Shown piece by piece: positions 9,378 through 45,486 of a stretch of DNA of 64,000 nucleotides. The position numbers were made by a program, and so were the translations under genes. The DNA is taken from the NCBI RefSeq assembly GCF_900564145.1, contig NZ_UOOB01000001.1, forward strand, positions 2,792,754 to 2,856,753, written 5' to 3'. This DNA comes from Comamonas sp. lk (GTDB taxonomy: Bacteria; Pseudomonadota; Gammaproteobacteria; Burkholderiales; Burkholderiaceae_C). Position 1 is the stretch's first letter. The number at the start of each line of letters is the position of its first letter. The notes below the pieces were generated by a model that saw only the letters and a program-made list of their open reading frames with translations, searched no databases and was not told the DNA's origin.

Positions 9378-10517
9378 ATGTCTACAAATTCGCGCTACCA
9401 GGGCTCGCCCTCCTCTTTTCTGGCGGCCTTCACGCCAGAGGATCAACGCCTGTCAAGCGCTGAAAAGCCGGTGATGGAAGTCGGGCTGCAAGCTGCGACC
9501 CAGGAGGCCATTCGTGAGCTGATGCGCGAGGGCGAGTCCGGCAACACTCGCACCAGCTATCAAAGTGCCATGCGTTACTGGGCTGCATGGCATGTGTTGC
9601 GGCTGGGCCGCCCCATGCAGCTGCCGCTGGCAACGGCGGCCGTGCTGCAATTCATTGTTGACCATGCCCAGCGACAGACGGCCAACGGCCTGATGAGCGA
9701 AATGCCCGATGAAGTGGACGAGGCGCTGGTGCTCGCAGGCTACAAGGGCAAGAAAGGCCCGCCGTCACACAACACGCTGGTGCACAGAATTGCTGTGCTG
9801 TCGAAAGCGCACCAGGTACACGGGCTGGTCAACCCCTGCCAGGACGGCGCGGTGCGCGAGCTGATGTCGCGTACTCGCAAGGCCTATGCCCGCCGGGGCG
9901 AGCAGCCTCAGAAAAAAGAAGCGCTGACCCGTGATGTGCTGGAAGAACTGCTGGCCACCTGCGACGACAGCCTGCGTGGCTTGCGTGATCGTGCCTTGCT
10001 GCTGTTTGCCTGGGCCAGTGGCGGGCGGCGCAGGTCCGAGGTGGCGGGAGGCGACATGCGCTATTTGCGCTCCGTGGGGCCTGAGGACTTCATCTACACG
10101 CTGGTGCACAGCAAGACCAACCAGAGCGGTGCCGATGCCCCCGAGAATCACAAACCTGTGACAGGCCGCGCGGCTCAGGCTTTGCGCGACTGGCTGCAGG
10201 CCGCGCAGATCAGCGAAGGACCGATATTTCGCCGTATTCGCAAAGGCGGCCATGTGGCCGAGCCGCTGACCCCGGCCGCAGTGCGCAATATCGTCAAGGA
10301 GCGCTGTGCGCTGGCGGGCGTGGAAGGCGATTTTTCGGCCCACTCGCTGCGCTCAGGCTTTGTGACGGAAGCGGGCCGGCAGAACGTGCCCCTGCCAGAC
10401 ACCATGGCCTTGACCGGTCACCACAGCGTGAACACGGTGATGGGCTATTACCGTGCAGATACGGCTTTGCAAAACCGGGCCGCGCGCTTGCTCGATGAAC
10501 CTCAAAAGAAAAGCTGA
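9378..10517 (+). CDS. Tyrosine recombinase / site-specific integrase
   Basis: 379 residues from the ATG at 9378; a TTG at 9315 would add 21 residues of poor quality. The N-terminal core-binding domain (about 35-175) includes NTRTSYQSAMRYWAAW. The catalytic domain follows with Arg218 in SGGRRRSEV, a candidate Lys246 in VHSKTNQSG, His322-Arg325 in AHSLRSGF, His348 in TGHHS and Tyr357 in MGYY, so the full catalytic set is present. Such enzymes cut and join short core sites to insert or excise elements, or act on dimers. Its pairing with a divergent kfrA-like gene suggests an island module; no att core was identified. Confidence 0.9.
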   Translation: MSTNSRYQGSPSSFLAAFTPEDQRLSSAEKPVMEVGLQAATQEAIRELMREGESGNTRTSYQSAMRYWAAWHVLRLGRPMQLPLATAAVLQFIVDHAQRQTANGLMSEMPDEVDEALVLAGYKGKKGPPSHNTLVHRIAVLSKAHQVHGLVNPCQDGAVRELMSRTRKAYARRGEQPQKKEALTRDVLEELLATCDDSLRGLRDRALLLFAWASGGRRRSEVAGGDMRYLRSVGPEDFIYTLVHSKTNQSGADAPENHKPVTGRAAQALRDWLQAAQISEGPIFRRIRKGGHVAEPLTPAAVRNIVKERCALAGVEGDFSAHSLRSGFVTEAGRQNVPLPDTMALTGHHSVNTVMGYYRADTALQNRAARLLDEPQKKS

Positions 10518-10605
10518 GCACAAGCCGTAAAAAATACGGCAGAAATGCCGCAGTTGTGCGCTGCTTGCCACAGAGCACAACTGCCGTTTATCCGCTTTTG
10601 AGGCT

Positions 10606-11070
10606 TTAGCCCAGCGCCGCAATCACATCCGCCGGCGCCTGCACCAGCTCAATCAGCACACCTTCGCCGGCAATGGGAAATTCATCATTGCTCTTGGGGT
10701 GCAAAAACGTGATGTCGTAGCCGGCCGCGCCTTTGCGGATGCCGCCCGGTGCAAAGCGCACGCCGTTGGCCGTGAGCCATTCCACGGCCTTGGGCAGGTC
10801 ATCGATCCACAGACCGATGTGGTTGAGCGGCGTGGCGTGCACGGCGGGCTTTTTCTCGATGTCCATGGGCTGCATGATGTCCACTTCCACCTTCATCGCG
10901 CCCTTGCCCATGGCCAGAATGTCTTCGTCCACGTTCTCGCGCTCGCTCTGGAAGGTGCCGGTCTGCTCCAGACCCAGCATGTCCACCCACAGCTTTTTCA
11001 TGCGATTCTTGTCGGTGCCGCCGATGGCCACTTGCTGAATGCCCAGAACCTTGAAAGGACGGTTGCTCAT
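10606..11070 (-). CDS. VOC-fold protein, probable methylmalonyl-CoA epimerase
   Basis: 154 residues from the ATG at 11070, preceded by AAGGAG. The two-module VOC fold ends in TFLHPKS...GVLIELVQ, the signature of methylmalonyl-CoA epimerases (the Propionibacterium enzyme has FMHPKSGKGVLIEL). The enzyme would convert (S)- to (R)-methylmalonyl-CoA, linking propionyl-CoA carboxylase to the B12 mutase; both are encoded just upstream on the same strand. Candidate metal ligands are Glu62, His84 and Glu141. The first position, usually His, is Gln (GIQQVAI), so metal choice or activity may differ. Insertions around residues 128-136 are also unusual. A related VOC function cannot be excluded. Confidence 0.7.
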
Positions 11071-11090
11071 GAAATACTCCTTGATTTTGA

Positions 11091-11136
11091 TTGATAGCTG
11101 CCTGCGCAATCCAGTCAAGCGCTACAGCCTGTTTTT
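11091..11136 (+). repeat. Dispersed intergenic repeat, copy 1
   Basis: Starts TTGATAGCTGCCTGCGCAA and ends AGCCTGTTTTT; a member of the family described in the findings. It lies between the epimerase and ydcF genes. Confidence 0.6.
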
Positions 11137-11150
11137 GCATTGATATGTGA

Positions 11151-11966
11151 TCACACCTCGCCCAGCAGCCAGCTGCTGGCCATGGCGAAGTACTCGCGCA
11201 GCCAGGCATTGAAGCGGGTTGCCAGCGGCGTTGCCGCGGCCACGGGATAGATGGCGCTGAGGTTTTGCCGTTTGGCAATGCCCATGGCACGCATCAGATG
11301 AAAGTCGCTGCTGACCATGGCCGTGGCCGCATCGGGCCCCACGCCGCGCTCGGCCAGCAAGGGGCGGCTGAGCTGCAGGTTCAGCTCGGTGCTGGTGCTT
11401 TCCTGCTCCAACACCAGCCGCTGTGGCGCAATGCCATGGCGCTGCTGCAGATAGCGGGCCATCACGGCGGCCTCGGATTCCGTCTCGCCCCAATCCACGC
11501 CGCCGCACACGGCGATCAAGGCCTGGGGCTGCAGCCGGGCCAGCTCGGCCGCCGTATCCAGGCGGCTGGCCAGCACCGGGCGCGGATGACCGTTCAAGGT
11601 GCCGCTACCCAGCACCACAATGGCTTGCACCGGCGGAACTTGCGCCGGCTCCAGACCCAGGCCTGACAAGCGGCTCCAGAAGAGTCCAAGACTGATCAGC
11701 CACAGCGCAAATGCCATCCAGCCTATGCCCCAAAGCCGTTCATGCAGTGCCCTGGCCTTGCGCCAACGCTGAACCGCCTTCCATTTCCAGGCCAGCAACA
11801 CGGCGGCCAGACCCAGCACTGCCGGCACCAGCACACCCACATTGAAATGGCCCATCAGCATCAACACGAGGGCATCGACCAGCAGCACCACTCCCACCAG
11901 GCTTAGCAAGCTGCGCGGCAAGCCGCCGTTGCGGCTTGCCGATGATTCGTATGCATTCAAATTCAT
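11151..11966 (-). CDS. YdcF/DUF218 family membrane protein
   Basis: 271 residues from the ATG at 11966; an upstream in-frame start is rejected because it lies in the pccA terminator. Membrane segments lie near the N-terminus (about 20-60) and about 80-100. A DUF218 domain follows: VQAIVVLGSG, RLDTAAELARLQPQ, AVCGGVDWGETESEA and SSDFHLMRAM. Family members include SanA and YdcF, linked to envelope barrier function or binding of SAM-like ligands; the biochemical role is unsettled. It sits between pccA and the epimerase gene on the same strand but after a likely terminator, so it need not belong to the propionate operon. Confidence 0.85.
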   Translation of the reverse strand: MNLNAYESSASRNGGLPRSLLSLVGVVLLVDALVLMLMGHFNVGVLVPAVLGLAAVLLAWKWKAVQRWRKARALHERLWGIGWMAFALWLISLGLFWSRLSGLGLEPAQVPPVQAIVVLGSGTLNGHPRPVLASRLDTAAELARLQPQALIAVCGGVDWGETESEAAVMARYLQQRHGIAPQRLVLEQESTSTELNLQLSRPLLAERGVGPDAATAMVSSDFHLMRAMGIAKRQNLSAIYPVAAATPLATRFNAWLREYFAMASSWLLGEV

Positions 11967-12011
11967 AGCTGATGGTGCTTGTTCATCCAGGGCTAGAGCC
12001 GGTTGGCATTG

Positions 12012-12042
12012 AAAAACCCGCAAGGCTTTGCGGCCAGGCGGG
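12012..12042 (-). terminator. Likely terminator after pccA
   Basis: On the minus strand a GC-rich hairpin (outer stem CCCGC/GCGGG, 12017-12042) ends in five T residues (12012-12016), shortly after the pccA stop at 12091. Confidence 0.6.
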
Positions 12043-12090
12043 CTTGGGGGATATCAGGCAGAGCTTACGCAGCTGCCTGATTCCGGTACA

Positions 12091-14139
12091 TCACTCGAAT
12101 TCGAGAATGATGTCGTCCACAGCCAAGGAATCGCCCTTGCTGGCCGAGACCTTGCTCACCACGCCGTCCTGTGCTGCGAAGAGGATGTTTTCCATCTTCA
12201 TGGCTTCGATGACGGCCAGCTTTTCGCCGGCTTGCACCTTCTGACCGGGCTGCACGGCCACGTCGACCAAGAGGCCGGGCATGGGCGAGAGCAGGAACTT
12301 GGACAGATCGGGCGGAGCCTTGTAAGGCATGAGCCGGTGCAGCTCGGCACCCTTGGGCGAGAGCACCAGCACATCGGCTTGCGTGCCGTTGTGAATCACG
12401 CGCAGAGCCAGCGGATTCTTGGGCGTGCCGCGCTCGATCTGGCAGGTGAAAGGCTTGCCGTTGCAGCTGCCGCGTACGACCAGATCACGGATATCCGCAT
12501 TGCTGCGGAATTCGTAGGTCTTGCCGTTGACGACGACCTTGCAGACACGGGACAGCGCGTCGAAATCGGTGACCTCACCGCTCACATACTGGTTGTTGCC
12601 TTCGGCGCCCAGCACCGCAGCCGTGTAGCGCTCGCCCACCTGCACGTTGTGGCCCTGCATCTGGCCGGTGATGGTGGAAGCGCGCGCGCGGTAGCGGCGG
12701 TTGCGGAACAGTGCCAGGGCAACCAGAAAATCCGGATCGCTGTGAGGCACGTCCTCGGCATGGAAGCCGTGGCTGTAATGCTCGGCGATGAAGCCGGTAT
12801 TGAACTCGCCCGTCACAAACTTGGGGTGGGCCAGAAGCGCGGCCTGGAACGGGATGTTGGAGCTGATGCCGCGAATGGCAAAGCCGTTCAGGGCTTCACG
12901 CATCTTGGCAATGGCTTCGTTGCGATCCTTGCCGTGCACGATGAGCTTGGCGATCATCGAGTCATAGAACATGGGAATCTCGCCGCCGTCATACACGCCG
13001 GTATCCACGCGCACGCCTTGCAGGTGCTCGGTATCGGCCTGCCACATGGTCTGCTCGGGAGGCGAAAAGCGCACCAGACGGCCGGTCGATGGCAGGAAGT
13101 TGCGGAACGGGTCTTCGGCGTTGATACGGCACTCGATGGCCCAGCCGTCGCGCTTGACATCGGCCTGAGCGAAGGAAAGCTTTTCGCCAGCGGCCACGCG
13201 GATCATCTGCTCGACCAGATCCAGGCCGGTGATGCACTCGGTGACCGGGTGCTCCACCTGCAGACGGGTGTTCATTTCCAGGAAGTAGAAGTCCTGGTCC
13301 TTGCCGACCACGAACTCCACGGTGCCGGCGCTTTGGTACTTCACGGCCTTGGCCAGTTGCACGGCCTGCTCACCCATGGCTTTGCGGGTTTCCTCACTGA
13401 TGAAGGGGCTTGGCGCTTCCTCGATCACCTTCTGGTGGCGGCGCTGGATCGAGCACTCGCGCTCGTTCAGATACACCACATTGCCGTGGCTGTCGCCCAG
13501 AATCTGGATTTCGATGTGGCGCGGCTCCTGCACAAACTTCTCGATGAAGATGCGGTCATCGCCAAAGCTGTTGCGGGCTTCGTTCTGGCAGCTGGCAAAG
13601 CCTTCAAAGGCTTCCTTGTCGTTGAACGCGACGCGCAAGCCCTTGCCGCCGCCGCCGGCCGAAGCCTTGATCATCACGGGATAGCCAATACCCTTGGCGA
13701 TTTCCACGGCCTGCTCGGGGCCGGCGATGGCATCGTTGTAGCCAGGGATGGTATTGACCTGGGCCTCGTTGGCCAGCTTCTTGGAAGCGATCTTGTCGCC
13801 CATGGCGGCAATCGAATGCGCCTTGGGACCGATAAAGGCAATGCCTTCGTCTTCGCAGCGCTTGGCAAAAGCCTCGTTTTCGCTCAGAAATCCGTAGCCA
13901 GGGTGAATGGCTTGCGCGCCGGTCTGCTTGGCCGCTGCAATGATGCGCTCGGCCACCAGATAGGACTCGCGGCTGGGCGCTGCACCGATGTGCACGGCCT
14001 CGTCGGCCAGCTTCACATGGCGTGCATCCTTGTCCGCATCGGAATAGACCGCCACGGTCTGGATGCCCATTTTGCGGGCAGTAGCAATCACACGGCAGGC
14101 AATTTCTCCGCGGTTGGCAATCAGGATTTTGGTAAACAT
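12091..14139 (-). CDS. pccA: Propionyl-/acyl-CoA carboxylase alpha subunit (biotin carboxylase + BCCP)
   Basis: 682 residues. The N-terminal biotin-carboxylase part begins MFTKILIANRGEIACRVI and holds the ATP-grasp glycine loop KASAGGGGKGLR and the EMNTRLQVEHPVTE catalytic segment. The C-terminal biotinyl domain has the EAMKMEN motif with Lys648 as the biotinylated residue. Together with PccB it carboxylates propionyl-CoA to (S)-methylmalonyl-CoA. The genes for PccB, MeaB and the mutase lie upstream on the same strand, which favours propionyl-CoA over other acyl-CoAs. The start overlaps the end of the DUF389 gene by 19 bp, suggesting translational coupling. Confidence 0.93.
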   Translation of the reverse strand: MFTKILIANRGEIACRVIATARKMGIQTVAVYSDADKDARHVKLADEAVHIGAAPSRESYLVAERIIAAAKQTGAQAIHPGYGFLSENEAFAKRCEDEGIAFIGPKAHSIAAMGDKIASKKLANEAQVNTIPGYNDAIAGPEQAVEIAKGIGYPVMIKASAGGGGKGLRVAFNDKEAFEGFASCQNEARNSFGDDRIFIEKFVQEPRHIEIQILGDSHGNVVYLNERECSIQRRHQKVIEEAPSPFISEETRKAMGEQAVQLAKAVKYQSAGTVEFVVGKDQDFYFLEMNTRLQVEHPVTECITGLDLVEQMIRVAAGEKLSFAQADVKRDGWAIECRINAEDPFRNFLPSTGRLVRFSPPEQTMWQADTEHLQGVRVDTGVYDGGEIPMFYDSMIAKLIVHGKDRNEAIAKMREALNGFAIRGISSNIPFQAALLAHPKFVTGEFNTGFIAEHYSHGFHAEDVPHSDPDFLVALALFRNRRYRARASTITGQMQGHNVQVGERYTAAVLGAEGNNQYVSGEVTDFDALSRVCKVVVNGKTYEFRSNADIRDLVVRGSCNGKPFTCQIERGTPKNPLALRVIHNGTQADVLVLSPKGAELHRLMPYKAPPDLSKFLLSPMPGLLVDVAVQPGQKVQAGEKLAVIEAMKMENILFAAQDGVVSKVSASKGDSLAVDDIILEFE

Positions 14140-36711: not shown

Positions 36712-36741
36712 ATTCATCAATCCACTTAAAGTGCAAATTAT

Positions 36742-36755
36742 TTCCCGAACGGGAA
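36742..36755. promoter_or_regulatory. HipB-operator-like palindrome downstream of hipA
   Basis: TTCCCGAACGGGAA, the same consensus (TTCCCG, two bases, CGGGAA) as the site in the hipB promoter, here about 70 bp past the hipA stop and followed by six T residues. Confidence 0.6.
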
Positions 36756-36824
36756 TTTTTTATGTGCCCGCGATCCGTGCAGCACTACGGCCTTGGCCGA
36801 CACCCCCTCGCCTGCAGACAGCAA

Positions 36825-38117
36825 TCACGCAGAAGCCAAGCGCTTGAGCGTCAGGGAGCAGCGCTGTTCGATCAGCTGCACGATCTGCTCCACCACCGCA
36901 TTGCCTGCAAAGCCATGTTGCGGCGCAGCCTGCAGCTGGCGCGCGGCCGCTGGCAGCTCGGTGGCCAGCACCTGCAATCGCTTTTTACTGGCGGCTTTGG
37001 CCAAACCAGCACTCTCGGCAAACTGCTCCCAGTGCCGCACCTCCAGCTCGCTAAACTTGTACTTGCTGCCAATTTTCATGGCCATCTTGGGCGTCAGCTG
37101 GGGATAGATCGCTGTCGCGAGCAGATCGTAAAACGGTGCCAGCGCAGGTGACTTGCCGGCATAGAGCAGCGAAAAGTTCTTGCCATGGGCATCGTGGTTG
37201 CCGATCAAGGCATTAAAGGTCACCCCATCCAGCAGCCGCAGAATCTGCGGAGCGCTAGGTTTTGTCACAGCGCGCAGCAGGCCAAAACACTGCGCCAAGC
37301 CAGGCCCGCCCTCGTTTTGGTACTTCATCTCGGGCACCACGCCTAGTGCCTGGCAAAAATCCTCCTGGTGCAAGCGCTCGCGCTGACCTGCAGCATTGAG
37401 CACGCGGTCATAGCGCTCCACCAATAAAAAAGAACGGCCCAGCACCTGGTGAATACGCGCCGGTGCCGGGCGCAGCCCCATCACCTCAGCCAGCAGCATG
37501 CAAAAGCCTTCGTTGGCCACGCTGTCATCCACCGCATGAATGGCGGGCTTCAAGATATGCGAGCTGGGCGCGCCATTGCGCGGTAGGCCGATCCGCACTG
37601 AACCCGGATTGCTCTCATCCACCACCACGGGCAGCTTGTCCTGCGCCCCGGCCAGCGACAACCGCAAGCCGTCATCGCCCGCCAGCATGGGACGGCGCGG
37701 CAGCTCGTCCAGAATTGCGATCAGCTTTTCATCGCTGAGCCACTCCACATCACCCTCTGCACCGGTCGCCCCAGCCCCGTTAGTCTGTGGCAAGGCCTGT
37801 CCAGGCTCCAGAAAAGTCACCGCCCCCGCGCACTCGCCGCCAATATGGTCCAGCATAGCGAAATCGTTCTGCCCCGACACCTGAAACTGCTGCGCAATCA
37901 GGCGGCGCATCTGCCCCTCGGGCAGCAGACCGGCGAAGAAAGGCCGGGTCTGGTGATCGTCAAACGGCTCGGCCTGCAGCGGCAGCGACTGCGATAAGGC
38001 TGTGGCCTGCGGCTGCGTCAACCAGTCAGGCGCATAGGCAAAGCTCAGCCGCCCATGCACCAGCGACAGGCTGCCCACGCGCCGGTCAAACAGCCAGACG
38101 TCAAGTTCATGCGCCAT
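36825..38117 (-). CDS. hipA: HipA-type Ser/Thr kinase toxin
   Basis: 430 residues. The N-terminal HipA_N barrel (VWLFDRRVGSLSL...FAGLLPEG) is followed by the kinase fold: LSLAGAQDKLP with Ser154 at the place of the autophosphorylated Ser150 of E. coli HipA, the catalytic loop GNHDAHGKNFSLL with Asp309, and FYDLL with Asp331 for Mg. All key residues are present, so it should be active. E. coli HipA phosphorylates GltX and induces persistence; targets in other HipA clades differ. It overlaps the hipB end by 11 bp, forming a canonical hipBA operon. Confidence 0.92.
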   Translation of the reverse strand: MAHELDVWLFDRRVGSLSLVHGRLSFAYAPDWLTQPQATALSQSLPLQAEPFDDHQTRPFFAGLLPEGQMRRLIAQQFQVSGQNDFAMLDHIGGECAGAVTFLEPGQALPQTNGAGATGAEGDVEWLSDEKLIAILDELPRRPMLAGDDGLRLSLAGAQDKLPVVVDESNPGSVRIGLPRNGAPSSHILKPAIHAVDDSVANEGFCMLLAEVMGLRPAPARIHQVLGRSFLLVERYDRVLNAAGQRERLHQEDFCQALGVVPEMKYQNEGGPGLAQCFGLLRAVTKPSAPQILRLLDGVTFNALIGNHDAHGKNFSLLYAGKSPALAPFYDLLATAIYPQLTPKMAMKIGSKYKFSELEVRHWEQFAESAGLAKAASKKRLQVLATELPAAARQLQAAPQHGFAGNAVVEQIVQLIEQRCSLTLKRLASA

Positions 38118-38385
38118 GGCGTGCGCCCTGCACTACTGCTGCCCGGTCAGCAGCGTCTTCAGGTGCAGCGTCCGGCAAGCCACTCAACTGCAATTCGCCG
38201 CCCAGCGCATCAATCACCCGCAGCACATGCTCCAGCCGCACCGTGGGCTTACCCGACTCCAGATCCACAATAAAACGCGTGCCCACGCCTGCGGCCAAAG
38301 CCAGCTGTGGCTGAGTCAGCCCCAGTTGTTTGCGGGCGGTGCGCAAGGCCGCGCCCAGTTGGTCGGTGGTGTGAATGGTTGACAT
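38107..38385 (-). CDS. hipB: HipB-type HTH antitoxin
   Basis: 92 residues from the ATG at 38385; an earlier start would run through the operator sites. XRE-type HTH: LGAALRTARKQLGLTQPQLA then VGTRFIVDLESGKPTVRL, followed by LRVIDALGGELQL. It should bind the inverted repeats just upstream, repress the operon and neutralise HipA by complex formation. The C-terminal tail (about 70-92) is Asp/Ala-rich and may be the flexible, protease-sensitive end. Confidence 0.9.
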   Translation of the reverse strand: MSTIHTTDQLGAALRTARKQLGLTQPQLALAAGVGTRFIVDLESGKPTVRLEHVLRVIDALGGELQLSGLPDAAPEDAADRAAVVQGARHGA

Positions 38386-38405
38386 AAGGTGGCCTAGCCT
38401 GAAAA

Positions 38406-38470
38406 TTCCCGTTCGGGAAATTATGAAGCCAAACCTCAGCCTGCGGTGAAATATTTCCCGATTGGGAAAT
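38406..38470. promoter_or_regulatory. Twin operator palindromes upstream of hipB
   Basis: TTCCCGTTCGGGAA (38406-38419) and ATTTCCCGATTGGGAAAT (38453-38470) are centred about 49 bp apart, roughly five helical turns, so two HipB dimers would sit on the same face. The promoter should lie between or over them. Confidence 0.75.
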
Positions 38471-38520
38471 TTGCCACACGACCGAAGCCAACGCCTCCAC
38501 ACAAGGTATTAGTCAGAATT

Positions 38521-38562
38521 TGCTCTAACGCTTATCTATCAAGCGCAAGCAGCTATCAAAAA
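38521..38562 (-). repeat. Dispersed intergenic repeat, copy 5
   Basis: Minus strand: TTTTTGATAGCTGCTTGCGC, GCGCTTGATAGATAAGCG; it begins one base after the stop of the frameshifted remnant. Confidence 0.7.
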
Positions 38563-38902
38563 CTACAAGCCCTTCACCGGGCGCCACGCCATCAACTCGC
38601 TGGGCCGCAAGCCATAGCGCGCCAGCACGCCTTCGTGCAGGCGGCGCAGCTCGTCCAGAATCAGCGCCTTGACTTCGGCTTGCTGCGCGGCGGCGCACGA
38701 TAGCCTGCACGGCTTGTTCTACCAATGCCACCGCATCGCCACCCAGTTGCTGTACCACGGTGCGCACCGTGCCTTTGATCAGGTTAAGCCAACTCAACCG
38801 CAGCGGGTCTGGCTCGGCCAGAGTTTGACGGATAGCCGTGTATTTCTGTGTGCTGAGCTTATAGGCCAAGAGAGACAACCGAGGGTTTACGTAAGTGAGC
38901 AA
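38563..38902 (-). pseudogene. Frameshifted gene remnant divergent from the STAND gene
   Basis: Minus-strand translation starts MLTYVNPRLSLLAYKLST and reads well to GDAVALVEQAVQAI, near 38700. The sensible continuation (AAAQQAEVKALILDELRRLH, then EGVLARYGLRPSELMAW, stop at 38563) lies in another frame, so one frameshift splits a protein of about 113 residues. The 3' part is repeated at 43489-43550. The family is not recognised. A sequencing error is the alternative. Confidence 0.6.
38604..38665. repeat. 62-bp direct repeat, left copy
   Basis: Matches 43489-43550 in the same orientation, 59 of 62 bases by hand count, 4,885 bp apart. It lies inside the 3' part of the frameshifted remnant. Confidence 0.85.
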
Positions 38903-38952: not shown

Positions 38953-41900
38953 ATGAATAAACAAAACACTTTGATTGCAGTTGCGACTGCATGGGGACCA
39001 AAATATGGCGGCATAAATGCATTTAACTACGACCTTCTCATTGCGATAGCTGCTGCACACTGGTCATGGTTGCGGGTAGTCTGCGTTGTCGCCGAATGTG
39101 CTGACGACGAAATACGACTAGTCTGGGATCAATACCAAATAGAACTCATTAGTCTTGAATTGACCGGGGGATCAATCGGGAAGGAGCATGCAACGCTGGT
39201 ACGGTCAAAACTTCAATCAAAAGGTCTGGGTGAGAAATCTGACGAAATAGTCTTCTTAGGGCATGACCGAATTACAGGTGCAGCAGCCATCGAATTGGCA
39301 AGAACTCACGGTGGGCGATCAGCACTCATCCATCACATGAGTTATGCGCACTATGAAAGTTTTGCTGAGGACAGTGCAACCTCAAAAAGCAAGGAAAGCG
39401 AGCAAAGGCAATTATTTACTGATTCCAACATTTGTTTGGCAGTCGGGCCACTTTTACAAAGCGCTGCGGCGAATATGTTGGACCGTCGAAGTACCGACAT
39501 CCCCATGCTGATACCAGGTCTTGCCGAGATTTCACCGCGGAGGCATCACAACACCTTCGTTGCATTTGTCAGTGGCAGACTTGATGCAGGTGCCCAGAAG
39601 ATCAAACAGGCACATCTGGGCGTAGCGGGGTTTGCCTATGCAGTCCACCAATGTGATTCAAACTCCGGCCTACCGGATGCCCTCCGTGGCGAGAACGAGC
39701 CCCGCATCATACTGCGCGGTATTGAGCTAGAAGAGACTCCCAATACAGATTCGACCGGGGCCGAAGTCGAATTGAAAGAACTGGCTCAGCAACATGCGGG
39801 GCGCGTCATCAGCCTACAGGCATTGCCATTTACCCAAAACCGTACCGAGCTATTTGACGAGTTAAAGGCAGCCAGTGTGTGTCTCATGCCTTCGTGGCAT
39901 GAAGGGTTCGGCCTAGTGGCATGGGAAGCCATCGCAGCAGGTGTACCCCTCATCTTGAGCCAGAAGAGCGGCGCCTATCATTTCTTAAAAATGCTAAGAA
40001 AAGAGAACTTGGTTCACGCCATCGACGTTAAAGGACAAAACGGATCTCCTTTCTTCGCTAAAGCAGACAAAGAGGCCGTTGCAAACCTGTTAATCGAGAT
40101 TGCGAAGAATTATTCATCCGTGCGAGCGGATGCATTACGGCTCAGAGAAGAATTACAAAATGACTACCACTGGCGAGCATGTGCGGACACTTTTATAGCC
40201 GCACTTGATTGGCATACCCCCACAGCGTCGGCTATTGCGCCGCCGCCACAAGTATCGCCCGCAACCACCACTCCACCAATTGCAACCAATCTGGCCCAAT
40301 GGTTAGCCTTACCTGCGCCGCTTTGGAACCAGCACAGCGGCTTGAGCCCCAGTCAACTTCTAAAGGCCGAAGAAGCATTGATTCCTTTCGCGCAAGAACG
40401 CTTTCAATTTTTGCAAACGCAGCTTAATTGGGCTAAGACATCGGCCTACCCTGCTTGCGTCCGACTACTGACCGGAGAGGGTGGCTCTGGAAAAACCAGG
40501 CTTGCGCTTGAGATGTGCAAATGCCTATTGAAAGAGGGCTGGGCGGCTGGATTTCTTAAGGGTGACTTTCAGACACAATCCGCACAAAGTTTGGCAAAAG
40601 CGCTCTCAAAAAGCCAACAACCGGTTTTATTGGTAATCGATTACGCAGAGACGCGCACAACTGAACTGCTTGGAATTTTGGCAGCTGTTTTGTCGCAAAA
40701 CGCTGCTTCGCCAATACGGTTTCTATTACTGGCTCGCAGTAGCGGTGAATGGTGGAGGCAACTCCCCATGTACGAAACGCGATGCGAAGCCCTGCTGGAT
40801 GGTTTTGCCACTACAGGCCCTTACAGCTTACCTGGGTTATATGAGCAAGTCAGTGAGCGCAATAAGGCGTTCAACCAAGCATTAACCGCTTTTGCAAAAG
40901 CTCTTAATGTTACGTCACCAAATATTCAACCTGACTTAAGTGCCGAGCAATACCACAGCCCCTTGTTTCTGCAAATGGCTGCCTTGTTGACTTTGTTGGG
41001 GGAGCGCACAGCCAATGCGGAAGCACTCCCACAGTCATTGGTGCGGCATGAACAACGCTACTGGTACAAGGTCGCAGCCAACTCAAGCTGTGAGAGTGAA
41101 GCCAATCTAATGATGAGTTTGGTGACTTTGATTGGCTATGCCTCCACAGCAAAGGCAATCGAACCACTATGGGTTGCCGCTGATGGACAGCAGCCTAATC
41201 TCAAACCACTTTTCACAGGCTTGACACCACTTTACCCAGGCCGCCAGGGGCTCGGTGCACTGCAACCCGACCTATTGGGTGAAGCACTCATTGGTCACCA
41301 AGTCTTGGGCTCAGAAGGAGGAGCGCTACTTGACGCAGTGCTGGGGGAAAAGGCCAGTGTGACGCAACGCACTCATGCACTGACCATATTGGCTCGCCTG
41401 CTTCGTTACCGTTCCGCTGTATCTACCCCACTTGAAATTGCATTAAGCAAGAACTTTGCACGCTGCGCACAGCCGCTATTTCAAGTGTGTATCCAAACAC
41501 CTAGCCCTCTGTTCTTAGTTGCGGAACGAAGTTTCAAGAGATTAAGTCCTACTGTCGCACTACAAGTGGCTGGACTTCTTGAACAAAACTTCAAATACGA
41601 AGTCCTCCCATTAGCAGGCCTGGAATTGCTAATTCGCGAAACAATTAATACGCAAGCAGAGCGCCGTTGCCAAAAGGTCAAAGCTTCAATCGGCGACTGG
41701 AACATTTTTAGCAAAACGCTTTTAAACCTCAGCATTGCAAATAGACAACTTGGCAAAACAGCTCAAGCTCTTAATTTTTCCAAGCAGTCTTTAGATATTC
41801 GTCAATGGCTTGCCAAAAATAATCCCGAGCGTTTTGAACCAGGCTTGGCTTCATCCTTGAGCAATTACGCAAGCCACTTGTCTGACGTCGAAGACATCAC

Positions 41901-43230
41901 GCAGGCCCTAGTCTTTGCCAAGCAGGCTTTGGATATTCATCAACGGCTTGCCAAAAATAATCCAGGGCATTTCGAACCAAACTTGGCTTCGTCCTTGGGA
42001 AATTACGCAAATCACTTATCGGATGCCGGAGACTCCATGCAGGCTCTTGAATTTTCCAAGCAAGCTTTGGATATTCATCAACGGCTTGCCAAAGATACGC
42101 CCGAACGCTTTGAACCAGACTTTGCCTCGTCCTTGAGCAATTACGCAAGCCACTTGTCTGACGTCGGAGAAACCACTCAGGCGCTGGACTTTTCCAAGCA
42201 GGCTTTGGATATTCGTCAACGGCTTGCCAAAGATATGCCCGAGCGTTTTGAACCAAACTTGGCTTCGTCCTTGAGCAATTACGCAAGCCACTTGTCCGAA
42301 GTCGAAGACACCACGCAGGCCCTGGACTTTGCCAAGCAGGCTTTGGATATTCATCAACGGCTTGCCAAAGATAAACCCGAGCGTTTTGAACCAAACTTGG
42401 CTTCGTCCTTGTTAAATTACGCAAATCACTTGTCGGATTTCGGAGACGCCATACAGGCCATAGAATTTTCCAGGCAGGCTTTGGATATTCATCAACGGCT
42501 TACCAAAGATAATCCAGAGCGTTTTGAAGCAGCCTTGGCTTCATCCTTTGGCAATTACGCAAATCATTTGTCGTACGTCGGAGAAACCACCCAGGCTCTG
42601 GACTTTTCCAAGCTCGCTTTTGATATTCGTAAACGGCTTGCCAAAGATAATCCAGAACGTTTTGAACCAGATTTAGCAAAATCCTTGAACAATTACGCAA
42701 ATCACTTATCGGACATCGGAGACATCACGCAGGCGCTGGACTTTTCCAAGCAGGCTTTGCTTATTTACGAGCGGCTTGCCAACGTACACCGCGCCAAGTT
42801 CGCAGCTGACGCGCTTAATTCTCAGCTCACTGTCACATTATTAACATGGCTAGTTGACGGAAGAAATTTGCTTGCGCCATCCAGCGAGCCATGCAACGCT
42901 GAAGAGCCCTACCTTATGCGACCTGCTCGCTTTTACCAATTTATGCTACTAGCACTCGGAAGACAGGAACCCTCTGAGATCGCCAGTTCAATGGACGCTG
43001 TGTGGGACAGTTGGAATGCGATGTCTAAATCCCAGCAAACACACTGCGATTCACAATACCTCGTCATTTGCGCATATGCACAAGCCAATGCTTGCCTTGA
43101 CTCAAGGTTTAGCAACTGGCCGCAGCAATTGGAAGCGTTCGATCGGCGGCGAAACGACAAGCGTCCACAGTGGATGGCACAAGTGGCGAAACGCAAATCC
43201 TTTGCTATCGGTGTCGAGCATACAAATTAA
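38953..43230 (+). CDS. GT-B glycosyltransferase-like / STAND NTPase / TPR fusion, candidate defence protein
   Basis: 1,425 residues, three parts. (1) About 1-415: a GT4-like GT-B fold with the N-terminal TAWGPKYGGINAFNYDLL, then ASVCLMPSWHEGFGLVAWEA holding the E-x7-E pair Glu317/Glu325 that binds the donor sugar nucleotide in GT4 enzymes. (2) About 440-930: a P-loop NTPase of the STAND class with Walker A GEGGSGKTR (508-516), Walker B VLLVIDYAE (Asp563), FLLLARSSGEWW as sensor-like strand, and a winged-helix segment ending LGALQPDLLGEALI. (3) About 938-1305: seven full and one partial 46-residue TPR-like repeats, then a roughly 120-residue tail. STAND proteins with an N-terminal effector and C-terminal repeats include phage sensors of the Avs type; a glycosyltransferase as effector is rare. 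The gene is visibly AT-richer than its core neighbours, has no strong ribosome site, and is flanked by hipBA, a remnant and direct repeats. Function is inference. Confidence 0.85.
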   Translation: MNKQNTLIAVATAWGPKYGGINAFNYDLLIAIAAAHWSWLRVVCVVAECADDEIRLVWDQYQIELISLELTGGSIGKEHATLVRSKLQSKGLGEKSDEIVFLGHDRITGAAAIELARTHGGRSALIHHMSYAHYESFAEDSATSKSKESEQRQLFTDSNICLAVGPLLQSAAANMLDRRSTDIPMLIPGLAEISPRRHHNTFVAFVSGRLDAGAQKIKQAHLGVAGFAYAVHQCDSNSGLPDALRGENEPRIILRGIELEETPNTDSTGAEVELKELAQQHAGRVISLQALPFTQNRTELFDELKAASVCLMPSWHEGFGLVAWEAIAAGVPLILSQKSGAYHFLKMLRKENLVHAIDVKGQNGSPFFAKADKEAVANLLIEIAKNYSSVRADALRLREELQNDYHWRACADTFIAALDWHTPTASAIAPPPQVSPATTTPPIATNLAQWLALPAPLWNQHSGLSPSQLLKAEEALIPFAQERFQFLQTQLNWAKTSAYPACVRLLTGEGGSGKTRLALEMCKCLLKEGWAAGFLKGDFQTQSAQSLAKALSKSQQPVLLVIDYAETRTTELLGILAAVLSQNAASPIRFLLLARSSGEWWRQLPMYETRCEALLDGFATTGPYSLPGLYEQVSERNKAFNQALTAFAKALNVTSPNIQPDLSAEQYHSPLFLQMAALLTLLGERTANAEALPQSLVRHEQRYWYKVAANSSCESEANLMMSLVTLIGYASTAKAIEPLWVAADGQQPNLKPLFTGLTPLYPGRQGLGALQPDLLGEALIGHQVLGSEGGALLDAVLGEKASVTQRTHALTILARLLRYRSAVSTPLEIALSKNFARCAQPLFQVCIQTPSPLFLVAERSFKRLSPTVALQVAGLLEQNFKYEVLPLAGLELLIRETINTQAERRCQKVKASIGDWNIFSKTLLNLSIANRQLGKTAQALNFSKQSLDIRQWLAKNNPERFEPGLASSLSNYASHLSDVEDITQALVFAKQALDIHQRLAKNNPGHFEPNLASSLGNYANHLSDAGDSMQALEFSKQALDIHQRLAKDTPERFEPDFASSLSNYASHLSDVGETTQALDFSKQALDIRQRLAKDMPERFEPNLASSLSNYASHLSEVEDTTQALDFAKQALDIHQRLAKDKPERFEPNLASSLLNYANHLSDFGDAIQAIEFSRQALDIHQRLTKDNPERFEAALASSFGNYANHLSYVGETTQALDFSKLAFDIRKRLAKDNPERFEPDLAKSLNNYANHLSDIGDITQALDFSKQALLIYERLANVHRAKFAADALNSQLTVTLLTWLVDGRNLLAPSSEPCNAEEPYLMRPARFYQFMLLALGRQEPSEIASSMDAVWDSWNAMSKSQQTHCDSQYLVICAYAQANACLDSRFSNWPQQLEAFDRRRNDKRPQWMAQVAKRKSFAIGVEHTN
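41764..42867 (+). repeat. 138-bp tandem repeats encoding the TPR-like array
   Basis: Units begin at 41764, 41902, 42040, 42178, 42316, 42454, 42592 and 42730 (the last is partial). Each encodes 46 residues of the type QALDFSKQALDIHQRLAK, then ERFEPNLASSLSNYANHLSD. Several units are almost identical at the DNA level, which points to recent expansion or gene conversion and allows length change by recombination. Confidence 0.9.
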
Positions 43231-43312
43231 AAAAGCCGCGCAGTCCTTCCAGAATCTGCACAACCCGCTACTGAATCAGTAGCATTCTCAGGTGATTGAC
43301 CTACTTACTTGC

Positions 43313-43453
43313 GTGCAGGAACCGTGCGCCACTTCCGCCGCCATGCCGATGGTCTTGCCAAGGGTTGGGTGGGGGTGGATGGTCTTGCCGATGTCCACGG
43401 TGTCAGCGCCCATTTCGATGGCCAGCATGATTTCACCCATCATGTCGTCACCG
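43313..43453 (-). pseudogene. Broken second copy of an lpdA 3' end
   Basis: This stretch aligns with 43676-43816, the last codons of lpdA, at about 90 % identity by hand count, in the same orientation and 363 bp away. It encodes [20 protein letters not shown] and onward to [10 protein letters not shown] with only a few changes, then loses similarity. It is either a partial duplication or the tail of a paralogous lpd gene brought in with the island. Confidence 0.85.
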
Positions 43454-43488
43454 CTGCTGCACACCCTTCCCAGCCCGCCACTCCCTAT

Positions 43489-43550
43489 GCCGCAAGCCAT
43501 AGCGCGCCAGCACGCCTTCGAGCAGGCAGCGCAGCTCGTCCAGAAACAGC
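43489..43550. repeat. 62-bp direct repeat, right copy
   Basis: Second copy of the 38604-38665 sequence. Together the copies bracket the STAND gene and the lpdA fragment. Confidence 0.85.
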
Positions 43551-43650: not shown

Positions 43651-45486
43651 TTACTTGCGCTGTGGTGGCACGTCCGTGCAAGAACCGTGAGCCACTTCCG
43701 CCGCCATGCCGATGGACTCGCCAAGGGTTGGGTGGGGGTGGATAGTCTTGCCGATGTCCACGGTGTCAGCCCCCATTTCGATGGCCAGAGCCACTTCGCC
43801 GATCATGTCGCCAGCGTGTGTGCCGACCATGCCGCCGCCCAGAATACGGCCGTGGCCGTGGGCTTCAGGGGAGTCGTCAAACAGCAGCTTGGTCACGCCT
43901 TCATCGCGGCCGTTGGCAATGGCGCGGCCGGAGGCAGCCCATGGGAACAGGCCCTTCTTGACCTTGATGCCTTGTGCCTTGGCCTGGTCTTCGGTCAGAC
44001 CCACCCATGCCACTTCGGGGTCGGTGTAAGCCACGGACGGGATCACGCGGGCGTTGAAGGCGGCGGCTGCCAGTTCCTTGTTTCCTTGCAGTTCACCGGC
44101 GATGACTTCAGCGGCCACATGGGCTTCGTGCACGGCCTTGTGTGCCAGCATGGGCTGACCCACGATGTCGCCGATGGCGAAGATGTTGGGCACGTTGGTG
44201 CGCATCTGGATATCGACGTCGATAAAGCCGCGGTCGGTCACGGCCACGCCGGCCTTTTCGGCGCTGATCTTCTTGCCATTGGGCGTGCGGCCCACGGCTT
44301 GCAGAACCAGGTCGTAGGTCTGGGGTTCTGGCACGGTGATGCCGTCCTTGGCAGGAGCGAACGAGACCTTGATGCCTTCGGGCGTAGCTTCGGCACCCAC
44401 GGTCTTGGTGTTGACCATGATGTTGTCGAAACGCGGCGCGTTCATCTTTTGCCAGATCTTGACCAGATCGCGGTCAGCGCCTTGCATCAGGCCGTCCATC
44501 ATTTCCACCACGTCCAGGCGTGCGCCCAGCGTGGAGTAGACGGTGCCCATTTCCAGGCCGATGATGCCGCCGCCCAAGATCAGCATGCGCTTGGGCACTT
44601 CCTTCAGATCCAGCGCACCGGTGGAATCGACCACGCGGGGGTCCTTGGGCATGAAGGGCAGGTGCACGGCTTGCGAGCCGGCAGCAATGATGGCGTTCTT
44701 GAACTGAACGATCTTCTTGCTGCCGGTCTTTTCCTGTGCGTCGCCCGTGGTTTCATCCACTTCGATGTGGTTGGCAGACACGAAGTTGCCGTAGCCGCGC
44801 ACGATGGTGACCTTGCGCATCTTGGCCATCTGGCCCAGACCGCCGGTCAGCTTGCCGATGACCTTTTCTTTGTGGCCGCGCAGCTGGTCGATGTTCACTT
44901 CGGGAGCGGCAAACTTCACGCCGGCCACTTCCAGGTGCTTGACTTCGTCCATCACGGCTGCCACGTGCAGCAACGCCTTGGATGGGATGCAACCCACGTT
45001 CAGGCACACGCCGCCCAGCGTCTTGTAACGCTCGACCAGCACGACCTTCAGACCCAGGTCGGCCGCACGGAAGGCTGCGGAGTAACCGCCAGGGCCGCCG
45101 CCGATGACCACCACGTCACAGTCGAAATCGACCGTGCCGCTGAAGTTGCTGGCCACGGGAGCGGGAGCTGCGGCAACAGGGGCTGCCACGGGTGCGGGAG
45201 CTTGCGCTGCGGGTGCAGGGGCAGCTGCTGCAGGAGCGGCAGCACCGGCTGCGGCTTCCAGCGAGATGATGACCGAGCCTTCGGCAACCTTGTCGCCGAC
45301 CTTGACCAGGATGGCCTTGACCACACCAGCGTGGCTGGAGGGGATCTCCATGGAGGCCTTGTCGGACTCCACGGTCAACAGCGATTGGTCCACAGCCACG
45401 GTGTCACCGGGCTGAACCAGCAGTTCGATCACGCCCACTTCGGCGAAGTCGCCAATGTTGGGTACCTTGATATCGATGAGGCTCAT
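43651..45486 (-). CDS. lpdA: Dihydrolipoamide dehydrogenase with N-terminal lipoyl domain (PDH E3)
   Basis: 611 residues, longer than a standard E3 (about 475) because a lipoyl domain precedes it ([26 protein letters not shown] with the lipoyl Lys). An Ala/Pro linker follows, then the flavoprotein: [20 protein letters not shown] for [16 protein letters not shown] redox disulfide, [13 protein letters not shown] for NAD, and [20 protein letters not shown] with the catalytic His. It reoxidises dihydrolipoyl groups of E2 and makes NADH. An AGGAG precedes the ATG. A lipoyl-E3 fusion in PDH is known from Cupriavidus and Neisseria. It lies 348 bp downstream of aceF, possibly with its own promoter. 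Confidence 0.96.

Follow-up and report, generated by a model that had tools for sequence, protein, structure and literature searches.

A predicted single-gene NLR-like protein of Comamonas sp. lk with a glycosyltransferase in the effector position

We analysed a 64,000-nucleotide stretch of the Comamonas sp. lk genome (contig NZ_UOOB01000001.1, positions 2,792,754 to 2,856,753; hereafter the window), and in particular the gene at 38953..43230 (+), which encodes P0001, a protein of 1425 aa that combines an N-terminal family 4 glycosyltransferase (GT4) domain, a STAND NTPase and an array of tetratricopeptide repeats (TPRs). Judged by its sequence and predicted structure, P0001 is a well-preserved member of a sizeable NLR-like family that carries a glycosyltransferase in the place of the effector. 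We propose, with a probability of roughly two in three, that P0001 is an NLR-like conflict receptor encoded by a single gene, that it is most likely directed against phages, and that its effector glycosylates a target. The predicted fold, the intact and conserved active sites, the domain order, the swap of the front domain among related proteins, the fast-turning repeats and the patchy distribution are directly supported by the data. The protein fits a conflict system because of the domain swapping, the patchiness and the position of one relative as cargo of a P2 prophage; a role in conflict is likely, and phages would be the likeliest enemy. An earlier reading of the window from its sequence alone (hereafter the sequence-only reading) had described an intact and AT-rich frame of 1,425 residues. 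Indeed, the open reading frame runs through without interruption, and its G+C content is 49.3%, against 59.9% in the rest of the window.

Domain architecture and conserved active sites

The GT4-conflict domain of P0001 (residues 8-413; 38974..40191, +) matches the Pfam family PF20706 with 245.8 bits, where the curated cut-off is 26, and the match spans model positions 1-384 of 385. Since this cut-off was passed in all of the 14 control genomes, it proves little by itself; the two other PF20706 matches in the same genome reach 27 and 33 bits, compared with about 250 for P0001. We rejected a second copy of the NTPase in this genome, as the NTPase was found once and these two other GT4 matches are weak. 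The STAND NTPase, with its helical and winged-helix parts, occupies residues about 460-930 (40330..41742, +), and passes the cut-off of PF25199 (nSTAND_NTPase5) narrowly, with 34.5 bits versus 34 for residues 503-602. The TPR-like array seen in the sequence-only reading is borne out both by many Pfam matches, of which TPR_12 and TPR_10 are far above the cut-offs, and by seven head-to-tail units of 138 bp, i.e., 46 residues, each (41764..42729, +). The C-terminal tail (residues 1311-1425; 42883..43227, +) shows the lowest conservation among the seven regions compared. No NCBIfam model matched P0001 above its cut-off.

To assess conservation, we used an alignment of 120 proteins, namely, P0001 and 119 homologues, which are the best 120 of the 302 proteins found at E 1e-3 (P0001 counted among them); all the 120 rows have PF20706 in their precomputed domains. 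The E317-x7-E325 pair (39901..39927, +), the Walker A motif (residues 508-516, G508-R516, containing K514; 40474..40500, +) and the Walker B D563 (40639..40641, +) are all found where the sequence-only reading had put them. In this alignment, including P0001 itself, E317 is present in 120/120 proteins and E325 in 119/120, with D in the remaining one, while K514, T515, D563 and E566 are each present in all 120. R209 and K218 are each found in 119 proteins, with one gap and no alternative letter, and G19/G20 likewise show no alternative letter and one to two gaps. The E-x7-E pair and the phosphate-binding R/K are features of the GT4 retaining glycosyltransferases.

AlphaFold predicts a GT-B fold for residues 1-430 (predicted local distance difference test, pLDDT, 90.7; predicted template modelling score, pTM, 0.90), and a STAND-type NTPase, with helical and winged-helix parts after the nucleotide-binding domain, for residues 431-1000 (pLDDT 93.2, pTM 0.88). 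Structure prediction had been set beforehand as a possible refutation of both assignments, and it favoured both. For the NTPase part, the top Foldseek match is EfAvs5; one list of structure matches contains mostly TPR proteins and ring ATPases, and another has many ring ATPases near its top. The solved folds nearest to the GT4 domain in the Protein Data Bank (PDB) are metabolic GT4 enzymes, including MshA, BshA and sucrose-phosphate synthase. The GT4 domain of P0001 is 18% identical to MshA; MshA and BshA differ from P0001 in being single-domain metabolic enzymes, whose acceptors are known small molecules.

Front-domain swaps, repeat turnover and distribution

Sequence comparison indicates that GT4 is one of several interchangeable fronts on related NTPases, the others being TIR, trypsin-like and calcineurin-like domains, and the swap itself is observed. 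The family survey found TIR proteins (L009-L011) with a related NTPase of 32-36% identity, in which the TIR domain was read by eye; Pfam confirmed it in P0121 from Aquincola sp. S2, which is the same sequence as L009. P0121 shares with P0001 the related NTPase and a repeat-like C-terminal region, but it has TIR in the effector place, and its own TPR and nSTAND5 matches are weak. Searching with the P0121-type NTPase returned 91 proteins including its own record, which, counted by hand, carry TIR_2 (59), GT4-conflict (11), a calcineurin-like phosphoesterase (2) or none of these (19). The front domains that Pfam finds before nSTAND5 are TIR at residues 4-91, Metallophos at 9-265 (two proteins) and a trypsin-like domain at 3-153, and the nSTAND5 matches of three of these four front-swapped proteins are below the curated cut-off. 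A profile built from the GT4-type NTPase recovers all of these. The trypsin-like domain together with nSTAND5 was seen on a Streptomyces plasmid (L111, 5353-8070), with a trypco2 gene before it.

In an NTPase tree of 60 rows, picked by hand from 215 with an NTPase match and computed with a quick method, the two Metallophos rows and one further row are nested with five GT4 rows in a starred clade of eight, and eight label changes are required overall; the trypsin row lies on a very long branch, so its placement is unsure. GT4 domains also occur on other partners. In Rhodoferax (L050), the domain sits on an NTPase outside the profile, with AAA above and NACHT slightly below the Pfam cut-offs. 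At 13 further loci (L051-L063) GT4-conflict is present, and the likeness to P0001 stops at the end of the GT4 domain. These proteins represent a second GT4-conflict class, in which 11 of the 13 have 1280-1446 aa (coordinates for L052, 9977-14206, and for L114, 7980-11921). The single member scanned has C-terminal B12-binding and radical-SAM domains, an unusual combination, and a GT4-conflict protein on a conjugative Rhizobium plasmid, amid integrases, is annotated as a cobalamin-dependent protein.

The TPR units were detected with one seed and a score threshold; therefore, diverged units were missed. The 12 closest proteins have 4 to 9 detected units with an exact 46-residue spacing, where the 4-unit array is that of P0012, which comes from a 4761-bp contig and is possibly cut. 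Between proteins, units with the same index are scarcely more alike than units with any index (0.64 vs 0.62 for P0002), and the repeats are less alike than residues 1-940 (81% for P0002) in 11 out of 11 comparisons, suggesting turnover by unequal exchange. Such a pattern looks like that expected of a fast-changing sensor, although it does not by itself prove a sensing role.

The family is distributed patchily. A relative at E 1e-20 was found in 2 of the 53 Comamonas genomes, own genome counted. At the level of the taxonomic family, 7 of the 399 genomes have any match, namely, 2 to the whole query (own genome included), 2 to GT4 only and 3 to the NTPase only, and when the NTPase alone was used as the query in a sample of the class, 3 of the 369 genomes matched, own genome included. 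We found 49 loci in named genomes. The loci analysed are not all independent, since six pairs (L005/L044, L006/L015, L007/L052, L008/L059, L013/L032 and L064/L135) look like identical records by their coordinates or identical scores. Of the 28 loci that have at least 8 kb of flank, 23 show a lower G+C content than their flanks. Some relatives are borne on plasmids, and integrases were present in two of the four plasmid regions viewed. On plasmid p2 of Robbsia andropogonis (L113, 7998-9902), a lone GT4-conflict gene of 634 aa lies about 2 kb from VgrG, DUF4123 and effector genes of a type VI secretion system (T6SS).

Genomic context of P0001 and its relatives

The best single piece of context, albeit one case only, is L064, a locus from a 32.9-kb viral contig with a GT4-STAND-TPR gene at 9533-13675. 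It carries the P2-family phage genes for the small terminase, the scaffold, the large terminase and the portal, in this order, and the GT4-STAND-TPR gene lies 2 kb beyond the portal gene Q; the terminase matches 336 phage records, including Burkholderia phages Milagro and KS14. The encoded protein is extended by about 150 residues at its N-terminus, and the gene is preceded by a fragment resembling a DNA methyltransferase. According to the accessible part of Rousset et al. 2022 (PMC9122126), in E. coli the cos-proximal place between gpQ and gpA is a hotspot for anti-phage systems. We did not see gpA at L064 because the contig ends with the GT4 gene.

We then turned to the neighbours of the relatives. 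Of the 34 loci considered, 32 contributed to a set of 142 proteins out of 144 chosen; the two omitted, of 1954 and 1125 residues, were over the size limit, and the former, when scanned alone, had no PADLOC match. As the genes were called with a greedy open reading frame caller, some of these proteins may be spurious. According to the sequence-only reading, a constant location in polysaccharide or lipopolysaccharide (LPS) loci, together with a lack of defence-island enrichment, would refute a defence protein. However, among the best 25 of 210 families (ordered by members, then E), no glycan-synthesis family was found in two or more of the 142 neighbours at a best E below about 5e-8, single cases being possible; hence we rejected a regular polysaccharide or LPS biosynthesis setting. 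SLFN_AlbA_2 occurs in five and HATPase_c_4 in six of the neighbours. At four loci from Geobacter, Pelobacter and Trichlorobacter (L022, L025, L028 and L034), the GT4-STAND-TPR gene shares its final 4 bp with a 469-aa gene, which belongs to one family in all four; the copy that was scanned singly encodes a Schlafen-AlbA_2/HATPase_c_4 protein, and it is possible that this gene is a partner of the GT4-STAND-TPR gene. At L018, a reverse transcriptase that matches a DRT model and an MzaA-like protein are encoded just upstream of the relative, and a neighbour protein at L026 matches PDC-M37B and DolB.

In the window, the P0001 gene sits between hipBA and the pdh operon; the nearest genes named, partly by eye, are hipBA, a decayed toxin-like gene, an MFS (major facilitator superfamily) transporter, YjdM and the pdh operon. 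The hipBA pair claimed by the sequence-only reading lies upstream, with family matches for both the hipA-like (36825..38117, -) and the hipB-like gene (38107..38502, -). Similar palindromes of the TTTCCCGxxxGGGAAA kind occur past the hipA end (36737-36759) and at the hipB start (38402-38424 and 38449-38472), and are perhaps HipB operators. The remnants and direct repeats that the sequence-only reading described were found as well. A 78-nt repeat flanks the gene in two copies of 88% identity (38588..38665 and 43473..43550, strand not assigned), and part of the lpdA 3' end is present as an extra copy (43307..43470, -; 85%) besides lpdA itself (43651..45486, -), named by eye as the dihydrolipoamide dehydrogenase of the pdh operon. 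Comparison with the loci of relatives places a decayed 3' part of a resident gene at 38545..38877 (-), whose counterpart in L099 we take, by eye, to be the end of a Fic-like protein. In 3 of 16 relatives (L099, L106 and L108), the stretch with the 78-nt repeat is part of a longer sequence near lpdA. The position between hipBA and pdh, the repeat, the lpdA copy and the stretch in these three relatives make the locus look like a variable spot in which toxin-like genes have decayed, and the duplicated lpdA end hints at a past site-specific integration at lpdA, which is unproven.

Proposed function and alternatives

In the mechanism we propose, the TPR array, together with the variable C-terminal tail, would sense a foreign molecule, upon which the STAND NTPase would exchange its closed ADP form for an open ATP one and oligomerise. 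Oligomerisation would gather and thereby activate the N-terminal GT4 domains, which would then move a sugar from a nucleotide sugar onto an essential target of the host or onto a target of the phage. Phage growth would thereby be halted, probably at the expense of the infected cell. The nearest structures suggest a UDP-sugar as the donor, which is a weak best guess.

Several results weigh against this proposal. P0001 has zero matches to PADLOC families at E<=1, and we accordingly rejected it as a PADLOC-named system, including the Avs1-Avs5 models. Two scans of a collection of 2.9 million viral contigs found, by the patterns used, one and the same contig with a GT4-STAND relative, and none was found in the named phage records. 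The trypsin-like relative has no TPR match in Pfam, and several relatives adjoin plain metabolic genes. Moreover, the sequence-only reading took the setting for a defence island, and this was not shown: the 142 neighbours match 76 PADLOC families, whereas 132 of 134 random genes from 20 stretches of the window's genus, family and order (proteins of 1373 and 1988 residues left out) match 110, with strong methylase, DndA and SspA model matches among them, so that the tally does not separate the two sets. The tally counts families rather than matching proteins, and the control is a rough yardstick, since its stretches are not from the relatives' own genomes.

An unlikely alternative, yet the one that survives best, is that P0001 is a conflict receptor directed against plasmids, rival bacteria or non-self kin, its TPR array serving as an allorecognition sensor as in fungal STAND proteins. 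The high internal identity of the fast-turning repeats, the plasmid-borne relatives with their integrases, and the lone gene near T6SS genes in Robbsia would all suit such a role, and the accessible part of PMC10907252 draws a parallel between related bacterial systems and heterokaryon incompatibility in fungi. However, the P2-family cargo spot and the reverse transcriptase and MzaA-like neighbours favour phages, and no cognate locus was seen. Much less probable is a regulated housekeeping glycosyltransferase, in which a STAND-TPR sensor tunes how much of a cell-envelope sugar or storage metabolite is made. Although the nearest solved folds are metabolic enzymes, metabolic genes adjoin several relatives, and the label "glycosyltransferase involved in cell wall biosynthesis" is given to several homologues by one source, the lack of a recurrent glycan-synthesis family among the neighbours, the scarcity of matches in the genus and family, and the exchange of the front domain on related NTPases for a TIR, trypsin-like or calcineurin-like one all argue otherwise. 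Slightly more improbable still, the GT4 domain might be a sensor of a sugar or nucleotide sugar rather than an enzyme, with killing by another route. The abstract of Kaur et al. 2021 (PMC8195603) puts the GT4 family beside invader-sensing domains, and their STAND fusions, as far as the accessible text describes them, often have GT4 at the C-terminus, a sensor position; but in P0001 it is N-terminal, where sister proteins have the other fronts, and the catalytic set (G19/G20, R209, K218, E317 and nearly always E325) is conserved. Finally, that the gene is a non-functional relic is very improbable, because, despite the surrounding remnants and three relatives (L040, L048 and L112) split into two frames, its 1425 codons are uninterrupted with every motif kept.

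The sequence-only reading called the architecture undescribed, which is too strong, because the Pfam description of PF20706 reads "Family 4 Glycosyltransferase in conflict systems", and GT4 domains were predicted by Kaur et al. 2021 (PMC8195603) to act as effectors in counter-invader systems, among them fusions with STAND NTPases that often have GT4 at the C-terminus; as far as the accessible text goes, glycosyltransferase families of such systems are also named by Kaur et al. 2020 (PMC7159879). P0001 resembles these fusions in joining GT4, as a proposed counter-invader effector, to a STAND NTPase. In the accessible part of the 2021 paper, the partners are AP-ATPase, NACHT and SWACOS, or there is a two-gene nSTAND2 operon, whereas P0001 is a single gene with an N-terminal GT4, an nSTAND_NTPase5-type NTPase and TPRs; the figure or source data of that paper may include this arrangement. 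With the Avs family (Avs5, SIR2-STAND; PDB 9jap and 9nc9; PMC12931631, accessible part), P0001 shares an N-terminal enzyme, a central STAND NTPase and a C-terminal repeat sensor, but its enzyme is a glycosyltransferase rather than SIR2, PADLOC does not match it, and its NTPase falls narrowly within the Pfam nSTAND5 family. In the literature searched, we found neither an experimental study of a GT4-STAND protein nor any test of a bacterial NLR-like receptor whose effector transfers a sugar; as most subscription papers and preprints were outside the reach of the search, the absence of a GT4-STAND study is not proven.

What is new here are the front-domain swaps, including one nested among GT4 proteins, the divergence of the TPRs, the patchiness, the low G+C content and the P2-prophage position. 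The chances seem about even that an NLR-like family across Proteobacteria, Desulfobacterota, Nitrospirota and Acidobacteriota is armed with GT4, which would glycosylate an essential target after the TPRs bind an invader molecule, and which would be interchangeable with TIR, trypsin-like and calcineurin-like domains on an nSTAND5 chassis, usually with TPRs. As related NTPases carry these different fronts, the trigger and the effector are separately testable. If the proposed function of P0001 is true, glycosylation would join the tested effector chemistries of bacterial NLR-like proteins, an idea already in print as a prediction, and since, according to the accessible part of Kaur et al. 2021 (PMC8195603), immune-type proteins of invertebrates contain related GT4 domains, this chemistry may extend beyond bacteria.

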